Origin: Dipodascopsis uninucleata var. uninucleata
Taxonomy: Eukaryota > Ascomycota > Lipomycetes > Lipomycetales > Lipomycetaceae
Assembly (NCBI GenBank): GCA_030568195.1
Contig: JAJLTO010000012.1
Coordinates: 62,001-126,000, forward strand
Direction: 5' to 3'
DNA: 64,000 bases
Shown in pieces: positions 17,116-24,294 of the stretch. The translations under genes and the position numbers were made by a program. The number at the start of each line of letters is the position of its first letter. Positions within the stretch are counted from its first letter, which is position 1. The notes beneath the pieces were generated by a model that ran no database searches, was not told where the DNA came from, and saw only the letters and a list, made by a program, of their open reading frames with translations.

Positions 17116-17482
17116 GATTCTTCAGAGACGGGGCTACCTCAACTCAGTCTCTATTCTATATGTGCTAAGTAAATGCAGTGCGTAACTAAAAAGAAACAAG
17201 GTCCAGACTACTCGCTAGATGTATGTGCAGGAACCTAGAGAGCATATATACATGTGATCACAAGCAGATTGACGATTAGTGCTAATGCAGCGAAACTAAT
17301 TCAGCATCTGTCAGCGCTTTCTTTAGGCGAGTACTAAGAGAGCTGCGAGCTGAACAGCACGGAAGCTACAAATATTCAAGCGGTCGGCAAAACGAGAGCA
17401 GGGCTGCGTGTCGAGTACTATGGTCCAATTACCTAATGCTAAATTAGCACTGGCAGCGTAGCAGCGCAGACGTGAGGCAGAT

Positions 17483-17488
17483 ACTTAC
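17483..17488 (-). other. Strong 5' splice site, probable leader intron of the RRM gene
   Basis: On the minus strand the sequence reads CCGCCAG|GTAAGTATC, a near-perfect complement to U1 snRNA. It lies 370 bp upstream of the RRM-gene ATG at 17115. Possible acceptors (CTTAG, ATAG, TTTTTAG) lie between 17140 and 17200. An intron in the 5' untranslated region is the simplest explanation. Confidence 0.5.
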
Positions 17489-18203
17489 CTGGCGGACACG
17501 AGAGCGCGGCGAAGATGTATCAACAGCGCAGGGCAGGACGTGAGCCAATTCGTTCAGGGACGCAGTGTCGGCGCGCGCAGCAAAAGTACCGGACAGCGAG
17601 AAGCGGCGAGGTGCAGCAAGCGAAACGAGCGAGAGGAATATGACCTAGACGAGGACGGCAGCGGAAATGGCAGACGACACTATCCAGAAGTCTCTAAACT
17701 ACAGCAGCGATGTGAGCGCACAATAGTCCAAGAGCAAGCAGCAGTCAAGAGCAAGCGCAAGCAGCTATTTTTATTATAGGTTTGTCTATTGTGTGTTATT
17801 ATTATTGGTTTAGTGTTATTACTACTGCCGCTGGAGGTACTATTAATTAATATGACAGAGCAGGTGAATTGAATGAAGTAACCGAGATCCGCCAGCGATA
17901 CGCGCAGAGCAGCAGCAGACGAGGCGATATGGCTTAACTGGACGTACTGAGATAAAAGCAGCGCTGAAAGATGACTGGAGGAGTAGGAGGAAAGACACTA
18001 GAGATTGATTAGAAAAGGGACAAAAGGGAACTGGTCAGCTATTTTCCTTTTGCTGTTTGGTGACGGCGGAGGCAATCCGACGTACGTACCAACCACACAA
18101 AGAGCAGGTAGTTTGGAGTAGGTTTCGTTACTTTTTTGGCTGCAGAAGTCAGCGCGAAGGAAAAAACAATAAAAGTACTGTGGTCGCACTAATATGTGGT
18201 AAC

Positions 18204-18254
18204 AATAATAATAATAATAATAATAATGATAATAATAATGATAATAATAATAAT
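18204..18254. repeat. AAT/ATT trinucleotide microsatellite
   Basis: About 51 bp of AAT units interrupted by GAT, inside the gene-poor block. Confidence 0.9.
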
Positions 18255-18799
18255 CAGCCAGTGCTCCCACCAGAACGAAAACCCAAATCATTTGAACAAA
18301 AGAAACGAGCAGGCACAAGTGGGCATCGACAAGAGAAACGCAGCACGATAGGAAAACGCAGTAGCATCATACAAACGGAATGCTAGAGGGTACATGGAAC
18401 GACACGGATATGTGGTACATTTAGAGCACGTAGACCAACAAAAATAAACGAACGTCTGGCGAGAGGGCAACGTGCAGAGGAAAGCAGATTGAAACAAGCG
18501 AAGTGAAACAGCGAAATACGGTTAAGTCTATTTTAAACTTACTGTAATTAATTTATTTCTCTTTAATTAGCAAACCAAAACAGCTATAGTTTAATTAATT
18601 ATAATTCTAATCTCAACTTCTACGTTAAATCTTAATTTCCGTTTTCCGTCTCCATTTCTCTCACGCGCTCTCACAGCACACCGCTTTGCTGCTGCTGCAC
18701 CGTGTATCGCTTGTGTTGCGCCTTCCAGCTGAAAATGCTTTGGCTGTGCGCAAAGAGCGCGACGACTCTGCAGCATGTGGATTGTGCTATATCCAGGCA

Positions 18800-18831
18800 T
18801 CTAGACGCGTGTATATGCGCGCACGTCTAGA
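18800..18831. repeat. Short inverted repeat with 8-bp arms
   Basis: TCTAGACG at 18800-18807 is matched by CGTCTAGA at 18824-18831 across a 16-nt alternating purine-pyrimidine loop. Confidence 0.7.
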
Positions 18832-19457
18832 CAGACGCGCTGCGTGGCACTGAGCGCTCCGTGATGTCGCTGCGCATAAGTGCCATCGTCTCTTTTCTAG
18901 TGTCTGCCGCGTGCAGACCAGCACGGCAGGCAGAACCATGCATGCAACAGAGAACACAGAACAAGAAAAAAAGGCAAAATACGCGGGCTCGAATAAAACG
19001 AAACCAGAAACGCAAGTGTTAATATACGCACAAACAGGAAAGCAAAATACGCAGCTATACACCACTGTGTACAGAACTGTACACGTTACAGCGTGGCACA
19101 CTAACAGACGTATACATACACACATCAGCGCAGGGTAAACTAAGCAGCCAAAAAGCAATCTCTGTACAGCTTGCAATACAAGATATGGACATGGTCCAGC
19201 GCTATCCACTGAGAGATGCCCTAATGGAACGCCATGACGAAAGTGGGCTGCCATGGCTTGCTCCTTGCACAGAAGGCGTTTAGCAATGACGACAGTGTCG
19301 CTGACGTCCGTTGGGCGCTCTGAGCTTTCCACCGACTCTATCGCAGTGCCTGCGTAGCCCTGCGCGACAGCGCAGGCGATGTGCGACAAGCTGTAGCTCG
19401 GTACCCGCAGACACGGCACGTTAACATCGTGTGTCGTCGTCTAGTGGGCTTTCTTCA

Positions 19458-19488
19458 AGTCAGCAAGCTGCCGGGCAGCTTGCTGACT
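19458..19488. repeat. 31-bp near-perfect palindrome (15-bp arms, 1-nt centre)
   Basis: The left arm AGTCAGCAAGCTGCC (19458-19472) is the exact reverse complement of the right arm GGCAGCTTGCTGACT (19474-19488), with a single G between them. It could form a cruciform in DNA or a stable RNA hairpin. No poly-T follows, so it is not an obvious Pol III terminator. Confidence 0.9.
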
Positions 19489-19961
19489 GTGCAAGTGCTC
19501 GATTCTGTTCGTAGCGCGCCCGCTTGCCGGCGCAAATGTGGCCCATCCCTGGCTGTGCATGTCAATTCCCGTTCACAGAGCCTGCTGAATGGCGGTCCCA
19601 CAAAAGGGCCGCTCGCTTTTGCGACTCTTGTAGCAACTCTATAGCAGCGCTATACACTGCGGTTGGACAACAAGGAGAGAGTACTCGCTACTTCGACCGC
19701 CTCAGCTACCGCTACCGCACATTGTGGGTGCCATGCAACAAGCCCTAGTATACGTGAACTAATTAGGCATCTCTTAAAAACTCAGCGTCAAAGTCTATTT
19801 ACTAGCGCCTTGACTATAAAGCCGCACTTGCTCAAAATGACATCATCGTCTTCCGCGGCAGCGCATACTTCCCGGAATGCACGTCGACCGCGGCGTCTAC
19901 GCGACGCTAGGGAGATCGGAACATCAATCTTAAATAGCTTGGCTTTTTGAGGTCTTGGGTG

Positions 19962-21659
19962 CTACAGAATTCTCTGCCTTAGCTGCAAAACAAAAGTATA
20001 TAAGTGAGGGCAAAATAAACAAAATGAAATGAAAATAATAAAATAACAAAACAAAACATAAAAATAAAAAAAATAAAAAGTAAAAGGACTCTAGAGCGTA
20101 AAACCAAACCTTCGTAAGCTCTAGCAGCGCTGACCCGAATCCGGTTAACACAGCTTTTTTGGACCCTGTTCCTGCGTCATACTCTCTTGTCGGCCGCTCT
20201 ACGTTCCTGCATAGGCTCTATCCCTCCCCCTTTTTCTGCGTTCTCTCTTTCCTTCGCACTCAAACTTTGTTCCATCCCGATTCCTCTAGTTGCGGACAGC
20301 TTGAGCAGCCCTTCGGCTAACTTAGCCTCTTCTGGCTACCTTACTCGCTCCCTGACATCATCGCGCAGTCGCTCACATTGCTCGAATATCTCCCTCGTGC
20401 TGTCTCCCATGGCGTCAGGTGACTTTCTGTCACGTGATTCGTCTCTGTTCTTCGCGGGCTCTGCGCCGAAGTGGTATCGAGCGAAGCTGCCGTCTACGTA
20501 GAGCCGGGCGCTGGTGCGGCCCTCGTTGACAGCCACGCGAACCATGCGTCTGCGTATGGTTGCGAGGATTCGCAGACAGTAGCGGTAGCGTGCAAGGTGC
20601 TCCAGCGGAAGTTCTGGCAGCCGGTAGCGCTCTATGCTGGTTTTAGTCCTATTCTTGGCCGACGCGGACTGCGTCTGCGGTCTTCGACGGCCTGACGGTG
20701 GTTCGTGCTTGTGGATCTCCACGTATACTTCACTCTCTGATTTATAAATGTAGAATGCTTCGTTATCTGCAAAGAATTCTACTGTCATTCTCCCAGCGTC
20801 TATGGTTACCCCGCATTGGCTCGTCTTAGTTCTTATGCTAGGAATGTCTTCCAGTTTAGGAAGGTACCTTAGTTCCACGCCATCTACTGCCATTTGATGG
20901 CCATTGCTGTTGCGATTATGCGGGCGCTGCTGCAGCGATGTAGTTTGTAGCCGTTGCTGATGCTTGTCGCGTTGCTGCTGAGTAGCGAGCAATGTTGTTT
21001 GGAAAGTCGTTCTAGCTTCCTGCAGAGTGCTGTTGCTTGTCTTTGTTCTCGTCAAATTATCCGGATCTACCACGCAGACGATCTGCTTATTAATTCGGCC
21101 AAATTCGACATCTTTGAACGACACTACGAAGCCGCATTTTTTGGATGCATCTTGCACGTCTTTGGCTATGCTTAGGTCTGCATCGACTTCCTCGTAGAAT
21201 TCGTACAAGAAGTACACACAGTCCGCGTCTTCAAATATTTTTAATGGCTGTAATATTTTCTTGCCCATCTTCTCGAAATAGTCCATTGTTGTACTTAGCA
21301 TTGACAACAGCCCTGTGCGGTTGTCGTTTTTATCCATCTGCATTGTTTGATATTCTGTCAGCACTCTATCCTGTTGGCAGTTCAGGAATAAAATAATAAT
21401 TATGCGTTTAGTTTATCAACAACCTACAATTTTCAAAACATATTTATTGCCATCTGACATGCGAGAGACTTCGGCTGTATCCACGATATATGAGAATTTT
21501 CTCATGCGTTCCACGACGTAGTTCTTGAACAATAAAAAAGTCATTAGTATTCCTGAGAAATCTTTTCGAGTTGCTAATGAACAGAATAGAACATACATTG
21601 ATTTGATCACTTTGCTCTCTTTTGCTCGTACGTTTGGTCTCCTTGACAGCAATCATCAT
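19962..21659 (-). CDS. PLK4-like polo-box protein with a vestigial kinase domain
   Basis: Proposed exons on the minus strand: 21597-21659, 21428-21523, 20345-21370, 20110-20217 and 19962-19982 (437 residues). The first three are well supported (donors GTATGT and GTAGGT, branch sites TACTAAT and ACTAAAC). The last two are tentative (donor GTTTGG is weak); otherwise the frame ends at TAG 20336. Residues 22-112 read as a kinase N-lobe: YIVDTAEVSRM, KYVLKI with the lysine, a TEYQTMQ helix, and KIFEDADCVYFLYEF at the hinge. No HRD, DFG or C-lobe follows. Residues about 220-355 match the PLK4 cryptic polo boxes: PSIRTKTSQCGVTI, then YRLPELPLEHLARYRYCLR, where animal PLK4 has [20 protein letters not shown]. 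Polo boxes bind scaffold proteins. Catalysis is not expected. The gene is GC-richer than its neighbours. Confidence 0.68.
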
Positions 21660-21985
21660 ATCAATATCACAGCCCTTACACCATCACTCTAGTTCACAGG
21701 TTAGCTACGACTCGTCCCTCTATTTGTTTGTCGTGCACTGTATACACTCGTGAGTTGTGCGTAAGGATCCATCGATTTGTTTTTCTAAATCCTTCATGCA
21801 TATCATAATCACGTGACTAACGCGTTTTGTATGCTGTCAGCTTTGTGATCAGAATGTCTTTATTCACTTGTAATGTATAGATGTATAAATATATGTAGTA
21901 TACGAAGATATATATAGTTTATTAGTGATTCACGACAAAGAAAGAACCAAAAAAAGAAATACGTTTATTATATCATGACAGGTAT
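21660..21985. promoter_or_regulatory. Promoter of the PLK4-like gene and 3' region of the arrestin-like gene
   Basis: 326 bp between two minus-strand genes. No additional frame or RNA is evident. Confidence 0.4.
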
Positions 21986-24294
21986 TCAGATGAAGCATCT
22001 GTCGTCAGGCAATCTGATATCATCCTCAGTTGCTCTAGTGGTACACGAAGGAAGACGCTGATAACCAGGATGATAGTCAGCCAGCATATTTTTAAGTAGC
22101 TTTCTTAATTTTCTACTGTTAGCAGCTGTTTTTTCGTCATAGCTTCTGATGGTTCTCATACTGCGAAATCCATCACCATTATTTAGTGTGTGATTTTCTG
22201 GTTTCTTCTGAAACCGCAATTTTTGACGTGGATGCCGCTGTCTGTAAGTATCCAAGGTTGTCTTGGTGTTTTGGATTATATAGGATGGAGATCCATGGTT
22301 TTCTCTTGTATCCAAAGCTTCTGGTGTCAGTGGCAAGTGTGGGGCAAGTAATGGAGTGATAAGTCTTACTGAGGACGATAGCATTCCTGTCGTGGAAGAC
22401 AATGTGTCGGAGATCAGTAATCGCTGAGGTTTATAGAAGATGAGGATAGGGAATCTAGCTCGTACGTACTGCCCGATATATGAACCAGCAAAGACATCTA
22501 TGAAATAGCTTACTTTGAAGGCGTTACAGTTTATTGTGACTGCACATGCGGGAAGCTGGATTGCTGCCGTATAAGCCGCTTCCTGACCAGTCATCACCTG
22601 AGGCCAACCGTCTCTTGATGCCTTAAAAGTTGATTTTGCGATAACGTGCTCCTCCGTATGAGATGTGTCATGCTTACTGGACTCTGCTCCTAAAAGGTAC
22701 TTTATACTGCAAACTACTTTCAACTTGATCTTGTTTATCGTTCTCTTGGATTCGTTGAGTAGTGAAGTTCGTAAGTAACAGTATTTGCCTGCTTCAAAGT
22801 AATCCTGACCTGTGGAGACACCTAACTTGACCAAGCCAGAACCTCCGAATAGAATTTTGTCCTCGACATAGGCATTGCGCGTCGTTTCTAGTGCAAGGCT
22901 GCGTGGAATTACCATTGCATTGAAGAACTTGATTTCCTCAGCTGTTCTGTGATGATATTCAATTCCATTTTCCTCGCGTGTACAGAGTATTGCTGCAAAC
23001 AACAGATATCGGACCTTTGCATGCGGCGTATTGCAATATCCTGGTCCGAACGTTTTAGGGAGACATACATTAAAAGAAATTTCTGTCTTTGGCTCCACCA
23101 AACCAATGATATCTGTTTTGACTAAGAGTTTTCTAGAATCGACTATTATTGGAAGATGATTGCTGATTTGTTCTGTACATATCATTGAAACCTCTATTCT
23201 TGTGATTTTCAGATCTTCGATAAATTTCTTACTAGATAGCCTTGAAATCAAATTATTAGAAGGTCCTTTGCCTCTAACAGCTATCTCGCCACTTAGCGTG
23301 GATTCACCGAGATAGTTGCAGTCAGCGTTCACCAGAAGTTTGAGGTTTATGTCGTTGCTTCCGGCTTCTTTCCGTTTGATGTATTCACTGGCCAAGAAAG
23401 TGTCTAATTTGCTGGTCTCTGGAAGGTTATCTGAATTCGCAAGTAAAGTTGCGATAGTGTTCATTGGCTGCATGGGAAGTATTTGTTCTTGGTTAACTGG
23501 CAAGTCTAGTATATGCGAAACTTGACTGCGATTACCTCGACGGATTTTGTGGGTATTTAGTAGCTGACCGGCTACAGTTGGAGCAGGCGACTCATTGAGT
23601 ACGATTTCTGAGACCGACTGACTCATCTCAAACGGCACTGCAATTGTGGCATTAATTGTATTGGCCTTTATATCGAATCCATTAGTTGATAAAAGAGCTT
23701 GTGCTTCTTCAGGATGGAGTTGATTGGCCATCAAAAGGGGAATATAGCAATCAGGATCTCTGTTCTCTTTGTCGGATTCGCTGTCTAGCAAATCACTATC
23801 ACTATTAATGATCTTTTCATTTATTTCTTCGTCTTCTGGTATGGCACTAGATGATTTCAGGTACTATAGAAGAATGTTAAGTTAATGAGCATACAGATTT
23901 CAGCTTCATTTTCATATCATTGACTTACATCTGACATTGCAGCTAAAGTCTCTGGTGATTCACCAGGCTTTTGAACGTTGGCTATATCTGCCTTGGACCT
24001 CATGTATTTGCCAGTATTCTCTGTTTTGCCTGAGGCGTTGATATTGAGCTTAGACAAGTTGATCAAGTTGCCAAATGTTCGTTCGTTATTTTCTGCTTTA
24101 AAGTTATATTCGCTTTCCAGCGATGGGAGCAGTGGAGCACTTTCTAAATCTACCAATTCACTCTCAATGGAACTGCTCACAAATCCTCGGTAGTCATAAT
24201 CTCTCCTATATGCTGGATAGTTATATGATTTACCAGGACGTGAATTAGATGCTGCCATCTTGGCAAGTAGTGTGGCCCTGTCGATAGCTCTCAA
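21986..24294 (-). CDS. Arrestin-fold protein (alpha-arrestin-like trafficking adaptor)
   Basis: Two exons on the minus strand, 23929-24294 and 21986-23863, joined in phase 0 across a 66-nt intron (GTAAGT...CTATAG), giving 747 residues. The N-terminal 250 residues are polar and Ser/Glu-rich. An arrestin N-like sandwich starts near 300 (LLVNADCNYLGESTLSGEI) and an arrestin C-like domain follows (GLVKLGVSTGQDYFEAGKY, then RTINKIKLKVVCSIKYLL), ending with ARFPILIFY. Fungal alpha-arrestins recruit Rsp5/Nedd4 ubiquitin ligase to plasma-membrane transporters. I see no clear PPxY motif in the parts I read. It could equally be a Spo23/Bul-like or uncharacterised arrestin relative, so no symbol is given. 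Confidence 0.75.

Follow-up and report, generated by a model that had tools for sequence, protein, structure and literature searches.

The window analysed here, a stretch of 64,000 nt of DNA, carries on its minus strand a three-exon gene for a protein that may be a divergent, kinase-less bearer of a polo box of the PLK4 type and perhaps, at a site that we infer, a scaffold of the spindle pole. We give this reading a probability of about 0.5. Several lines of evidence, from profile searches, pairwise alignments and structure prediction, bear on the polo box, while the region in front of it bears on whether a kinase domain was ever part of this protein.

The gene runs from 21659 to 20336 and would encode 397 residues. 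Judged by its sequence, the three-exon gene is real, with its introns and splicing predicted from sequence alone. Putative exon 1 (21597..21659; 21 residues) opens with a double start codon, ATG ATG, the in-frame ATG lying at 21659, and is followed by intron 1 (21524..21596; 73 nt; GTATGT ... TACTAAT ... AAG), which has a yeast-type donor, GTATGT at 21596, and a consensus branch point. Exon 2 (21428..21523; NYVVERMRKF...NKYVLKI) holds the strand that an earlier sequence-only reading of this DNA took for the one with the kinase lysine. Intron 2 (21371..21427; 57 nt; GTAGGT ... AAACTAAAC ... CAG) has a weaker donor, imperfect as is its branch point. Exon 3 (20336..21370; 344 residues and the stop) lies within an open frame of 358 codons on the minus strand (20336-21412), which exceeds the longest stop-free run, 243 codons, in 500 base shuffles of 18000-22000, and its frame is therefore not a product of chance. 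All five peptides quoted in the sequence-only reading were found on the minus strand, but the gene as modelled is shorter than the extent that it gave, 19962-21659, no sign of coding having been seen in 19962-20335 (unscored). Beyond its stop, exon 3 is followed in frame by another 52 open codons (20180-20335) of coil-like composition. An extra 3' exon, spliced from the donor-like GTAAGG that immediately precedes the stop, is less likely, as inspection by eye showed no good branch point for it. The upstream neighbour on the same strand (21986-23863) codes for a protein with an arrestin domain (Arrestin_C in Pfam, E = 3.6e-10) and ends at 21986, about 330 bp from the gene, which leaves scant space for missing 5' exons.

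The candidate polo box 1 occupies 20540..20854 on the minus strand, approximately residues 226-330 of the protein. Here the Pfam family Plk4_PB1 (PF18190) matches over profile positions 12-106 of 107, with E = 0.017 for an isolated piece of 154 residues, for which no other Pfam family is reported, 0.051 when the spliced protein is the query and 0.069 with the exon-3 frame; the scores, 13.7-15.7 bits, are all below the Pfam cutoff of 26.4, and the human PLK4 region, run as a control, reaches 146 bits for PB1 and 115 bits for PB2. When the whole protein is searched, the coiled-coil family CC_CEP250 (E = 0.009) outranks Plk4_PB1 and Spem1 (E = 0.098) follows close behind; both of these matches fall on the Q-rich linker, and that of CC_CEP250 is probably compositional. 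An HMM built from two sequences, the human and fly PLK4 cryptic polo boxes (CPB), scores the region at 10.3 bits, which 1 of 2000 shuffles attains, and a PLK1 polo-box HMM gives it -0.2 bits, a value reached by 177 of 2000 shuffles. Run over the whole window in six frames, as 1991 segments, the PLK4 CPB HMM places the exon-3 frame first, at 10.2 bits, with the runner-up at 4.2. Profile searching, which the sequence-only reading had proposed as a check, thus returns Plk4_PB1, albeit below the Pfam cutoff, and does not return Plk4_PB2.

Global alignment, a series of 18 comparisons in which six boxes were tried and those of Cdc5 left out, is in line with this. The region aligns to human PLK4 PB1 with Z = 6.6 (0 of 1000 shuffles as high) and to fly PLK4 PB1 with Z = 4.1 (2 of 1000), and only with Z = 0.3-2.0 to PLK4 PB2 and the two human PLK1 boxes; nor does Pfam report its PLK1-type polo-box family. 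In a single BLASTP comparison with the human CPB, 9 of 35 residues are identical (E = 0.002). By eye, three landmarks common to human and fly PB1 can be followed, an R.KT start, a P..GR..P loop and a Y....LP......Y.Y..R helix, and the box is basic, with a pI of 9.6 against 9.4 for human PB1. Other tests are less favourable: in a three-way alignment the candidate shares 17 of 66 columns invariant between human and fly (shuffle mean 12.2; 13 of 200 shuffles as high), hhalign gives a probability of 4%, and phmmer with the exon-3 frame finds no match at E <= 10 in the PDB, which includes PLK4 polo boxes. None of the polo-box tests singly passes conventional thresholds.

How does this region fold? 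AlphaFold was run on the single sequence of a 142-residue polo-box fragment and returned a model of mean pLDDT 57.7, in which 38 of the 142 residues lie at 70-90 and four ten-residue blocks at 70-81. The chain is predicted to form five strands, then a helix of 27 residues and then a further two strands. Compared by Foldseek with 350,542 PDB chains, the fragment model finds the human PLK4 cryptic polo box at rank 1 (E = 0.37) and the ZYG-1 CPB at ranks 4 and 6, and for these PLK4 and ZYG-1 matches E lies between 0.37 and 0.95, TM between 0.25 and 0.32, rmsd between 8.1 and 11.5 and identity between 14 and 16%. No match among these chains reached E <= 0.001. The structure comparison that the sequence-only reading had called for puts the human CPB first, without a significant match and from a low-confidence, single-sequence model of a fragment. 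For the whole of exon 3 the model has a mean pLDDT of 41; among the best 50 of its 796 Foldseek matches the Cdc5 polo-box domain stands at rank 4 and ZYG-1 at rank 45, and matches to YbjN, FtsK and XcpY were distrusted at this pLDDT. Taken together, the profile, pairwise and predicted-fold evidence agrees in direction, each line being marginal alone, and supports a PLK4-type PB1; that the region is a genuine PLK4-type polo box we consider probable.

The flanks of the box are less like PLK4. On its N-terminal side, a predicted long helix (exon-3 residues 113-143, by DSSP of the low-confidence model) and the Q-rich linker span 20855..21028. On its C-terminal side, where polo box 2 would sit, there is a short segment (20339..20539), in which the fragment model places two strands, at its residues 125-130 and 133-138, and the exon-3 model a terminal helix. 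This segment gives no alignment signal against PLK4 PB2 (Z = -0.05 and 0.26), and Pfam, which detects Plk4_PB2 in the human control, does not report it in the candidate protein, so that the segment is at most a shortened PB2. With 67 residues remaining after PB1, the gene model has no room for a PB3. Of the PLK4 cryptic polo boxes that had been proposed, PB1 has in its favour converging tests that are each sub-threshold, and PB2 is without signal.

Is the protein also the remnant of a kinase? The sequence-only reading described a PLK4 pseudokinase whose catalytic domain had collapsed to part of the N-lobe, and this account overlaps with our preferred reading, which leaves the N-terminal identity aside and shares its polo-box evidence. 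Kinase-like words do occur by eye in the right order (FSYIVDTAEV, YVLKI, FEDADCVYFLYEF, then EFG where DFG might stand, in VSFKDVEFGRI), and in global alignment to five kinase N-lobes (Z 0.75 to 2.77) the best is that of PLK4, with 5 of 1000 shuffles as high; two real pairs of kinase N-lobes, however, reach Z = 9.8 and 7.6 by this procedure, and against whole kinase domains the Z values of the candidate run from -0.9 to 0.1. The domain itself is unrecognisable: a kinase HMM scores 2.7 bits, equalled by 80 of 2000 shuffles, no kinase is matched at E <= 10 in Pfam or by phmmer in the PDB, and none is found among the best 50 of the 796 Foldseek matches of the exon-3 model. The alpha/beta region at the start of exon 3 (21029..21370), which had been read as the alphaC helix and hinge, has a pLDDT of about 40. 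The single PDB match of this kinase search is a GTP-binding protein (E = 0.17); the single Pfam match of the N-terminal part, DUF7405 (E = 0.053), and a single NCBIfam match (E = 0.14) were taken as chance. By eye, the protein has no Gly-rich loop, HRD or DFG, in agreement with the absence of HRD, DFG and C-lobe remarked on earlier, and hidden exons that might supply a C-lobe were sought in the six frames of the window: an HMM search over the 1991 stop-free segments of at least 20 residues gives 330 bits to the Pho85-like gene and 5.3 to the next segment. The six-frame translation of 17122-21985 contains one DFG and two DLG tripeptides, all outside the frame of the gene, and no [HY]RD[LIVM]. 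A kinase N-lobe remnant is in our judgement improbable, and a PLK4 orthologue that kept one together with its polo box, the proposed pseudokinase, is similarly doubtful.

A different objection is that the likeness to PLK4 arose by chance or convergence, and that the region has some other fold, that of a nucleic-acid-binding domain (PC4/Whirly or PUR-like), for instance, or of some unrelated domain of fungi. The first seven Foldseek rows of the fragment model also include DcpS (2), the PC4-type MoSub1 (3 and 7) and PUR-alpha (5), at E 0.49-1.0; all the polo-box scores are weak, and the phmmer search of the PDB and the invariant-column count count in the same direction. Pfam includes PC4 and PUR families, and at E <= 10 the region matches none of them. 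Moreover, the landmarks of PLK4 are missing from the DcpS, PC4 and PUR matches, and of the six boxes that were aligned PLK4 PB1 is the one to which the high Z (6.6) is confined, so that we regard another fold as unlikely, if a little less so than the collapsed kinase. The composition of exon 3 raises instead the thought that the locus is a pseudogene in decay, its parent gene derived from PLK4 or a polo box. Exon 3 has a codon preference of -0.008 bits per codon, lower than in each of the 17 other frames scored (range 0.10-0.30) and lower than in one shifted frame of its own DNA (0.058). Its GC3, 0.56, exceeds that of every other frame among the 19 compared, which lie at 0.31-0.42; in blocks of 43 codons along the exon (20339-21370), GC3 is 0.40-0.56 over the first five blocks and 0.61-0.72 over the three at the end. 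With such features the gene might be an atypical or a young one, or one in decay, and the missing or unrecognisable second and third polo boxes and the frame left open past the stop would fit decay. Against it, the open frame is much longer than shuffles yield, the start and introns are plausible, and the GC-rich composition extends into the flank at 19.2-19.6 kb, so that the outlying GC3 may be regional; decay of this kind seems to us very unlikely. As these readings overlap, the probabilities that we attach to them do not sum to one.

The surroundings of the gene likely are those of a yeast. Neighbouring yeast-like genes have long open frames, among them genes that we take, by eye, to be Grr1-, Pho85-, Mrd1-, Sec59- and App1-like. 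At five other places in the window there are candidate introns with the pattern of donor and TACTAA-type branch point, and the best PDB matches of the pyruvate decarboxylase in the window are pyruvate decarboxylases; neighbours, candidate introns and this enzyme fit a budding yeast. Downstream of the gene, some 3.2 kb (17122-20335) hold no convincing gene, with a GC content of 0.58-0.59 in the best 200-base blocks and AT-rich tracts between them, an odd open frame of 217 codons on the minus strand (18787-19440) and a TAA repeat of 18 copies (18200-18254). No tRNA (ARAGORN) and no Rfam family at gathering scores was found in the window.

With the CPBs of PLK4/SAK and ZYG-1 the candidate has in common the PB1 landmarks, the order of strands and helix and the basic character, and it differs from them in its lack of a demonstrable kinase, its short, unrecognisable PB2, the lack of room for PB3 and its low identity. 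The budding-yeast Polo kinase, Cdc5, possesses a kinase; its likeness lies in the polo-box fold, given its place for the low-confidence exon-3 model, whereas the Pfam family of PLK1-type boxes is unreported in the candidate and human PLK1 boxes, the ones of this type that were aligned, show no signal. Mammalian PLK5, which has PLK1-type polo boxes, sets a precedent for the loss of the kinase domain from a relative of Polo, but it is an animal paralogue and the box of the candidate looks PLK4-type. The absence of a kinase domain from human PLK5 is stated in the literature (PMC9102930). We found no description of a PLK4 relative in Saccharomycotina in the open-licence literature searched. In collections not meant for yeasts, 4 stretches of viral contigs and 47 of bacterial and archaeal genomes fit the pattern, and none was confirmed as a relative.

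What might such a protein do? It would descend from PLK4 with the kinase lost, a loss of catalysis that we infer. Published work reports that Cep192 and Cep152 bind the basic patch of the CPB independently of phosphorylation (PMC7479937) and that PB1 and PB2 form a dimerisation platform (PMC4530586). By analogy, the basic polo box might dock on an acidic partner, a helix might mediate a dimer, and the protein might sit at the spindle pole as a scaffold. Published loss of PLK4 in yeasts counts against our preferred reading: Plk4 is described as missing from yeast genomes and retained in chytrids, which have centrioles (PMC6070874), and centriole-assembly proteins as absent from fungi other than chytrids (PMC6559791). 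A role at the spindle pole is made less likely by the finding, in the same paper, that fly Plk4, when produced in fission yeast, was not targeted to the spindle pole body (PMC6559791). The ichthyosporean Sphaeroforma arctica is reported to have an acentriolar organising centre and no Plk4 (PMC11153136).

In conclusion, we tentatively propose, at somewhat less than even odds, that a yeast lineage without centrioles kept a descendant of PLK4 consisting of the polo box only, repurposed as a scaffold of the spindle pole or the kinetochore. If this is true, PLK4 was not simply lost along with centrioles, and its docking module would have survived both kinase and centriole in a yeast. Such a protein would offer an inroad to how the spindle pole body took over from the centriolar centrosome.
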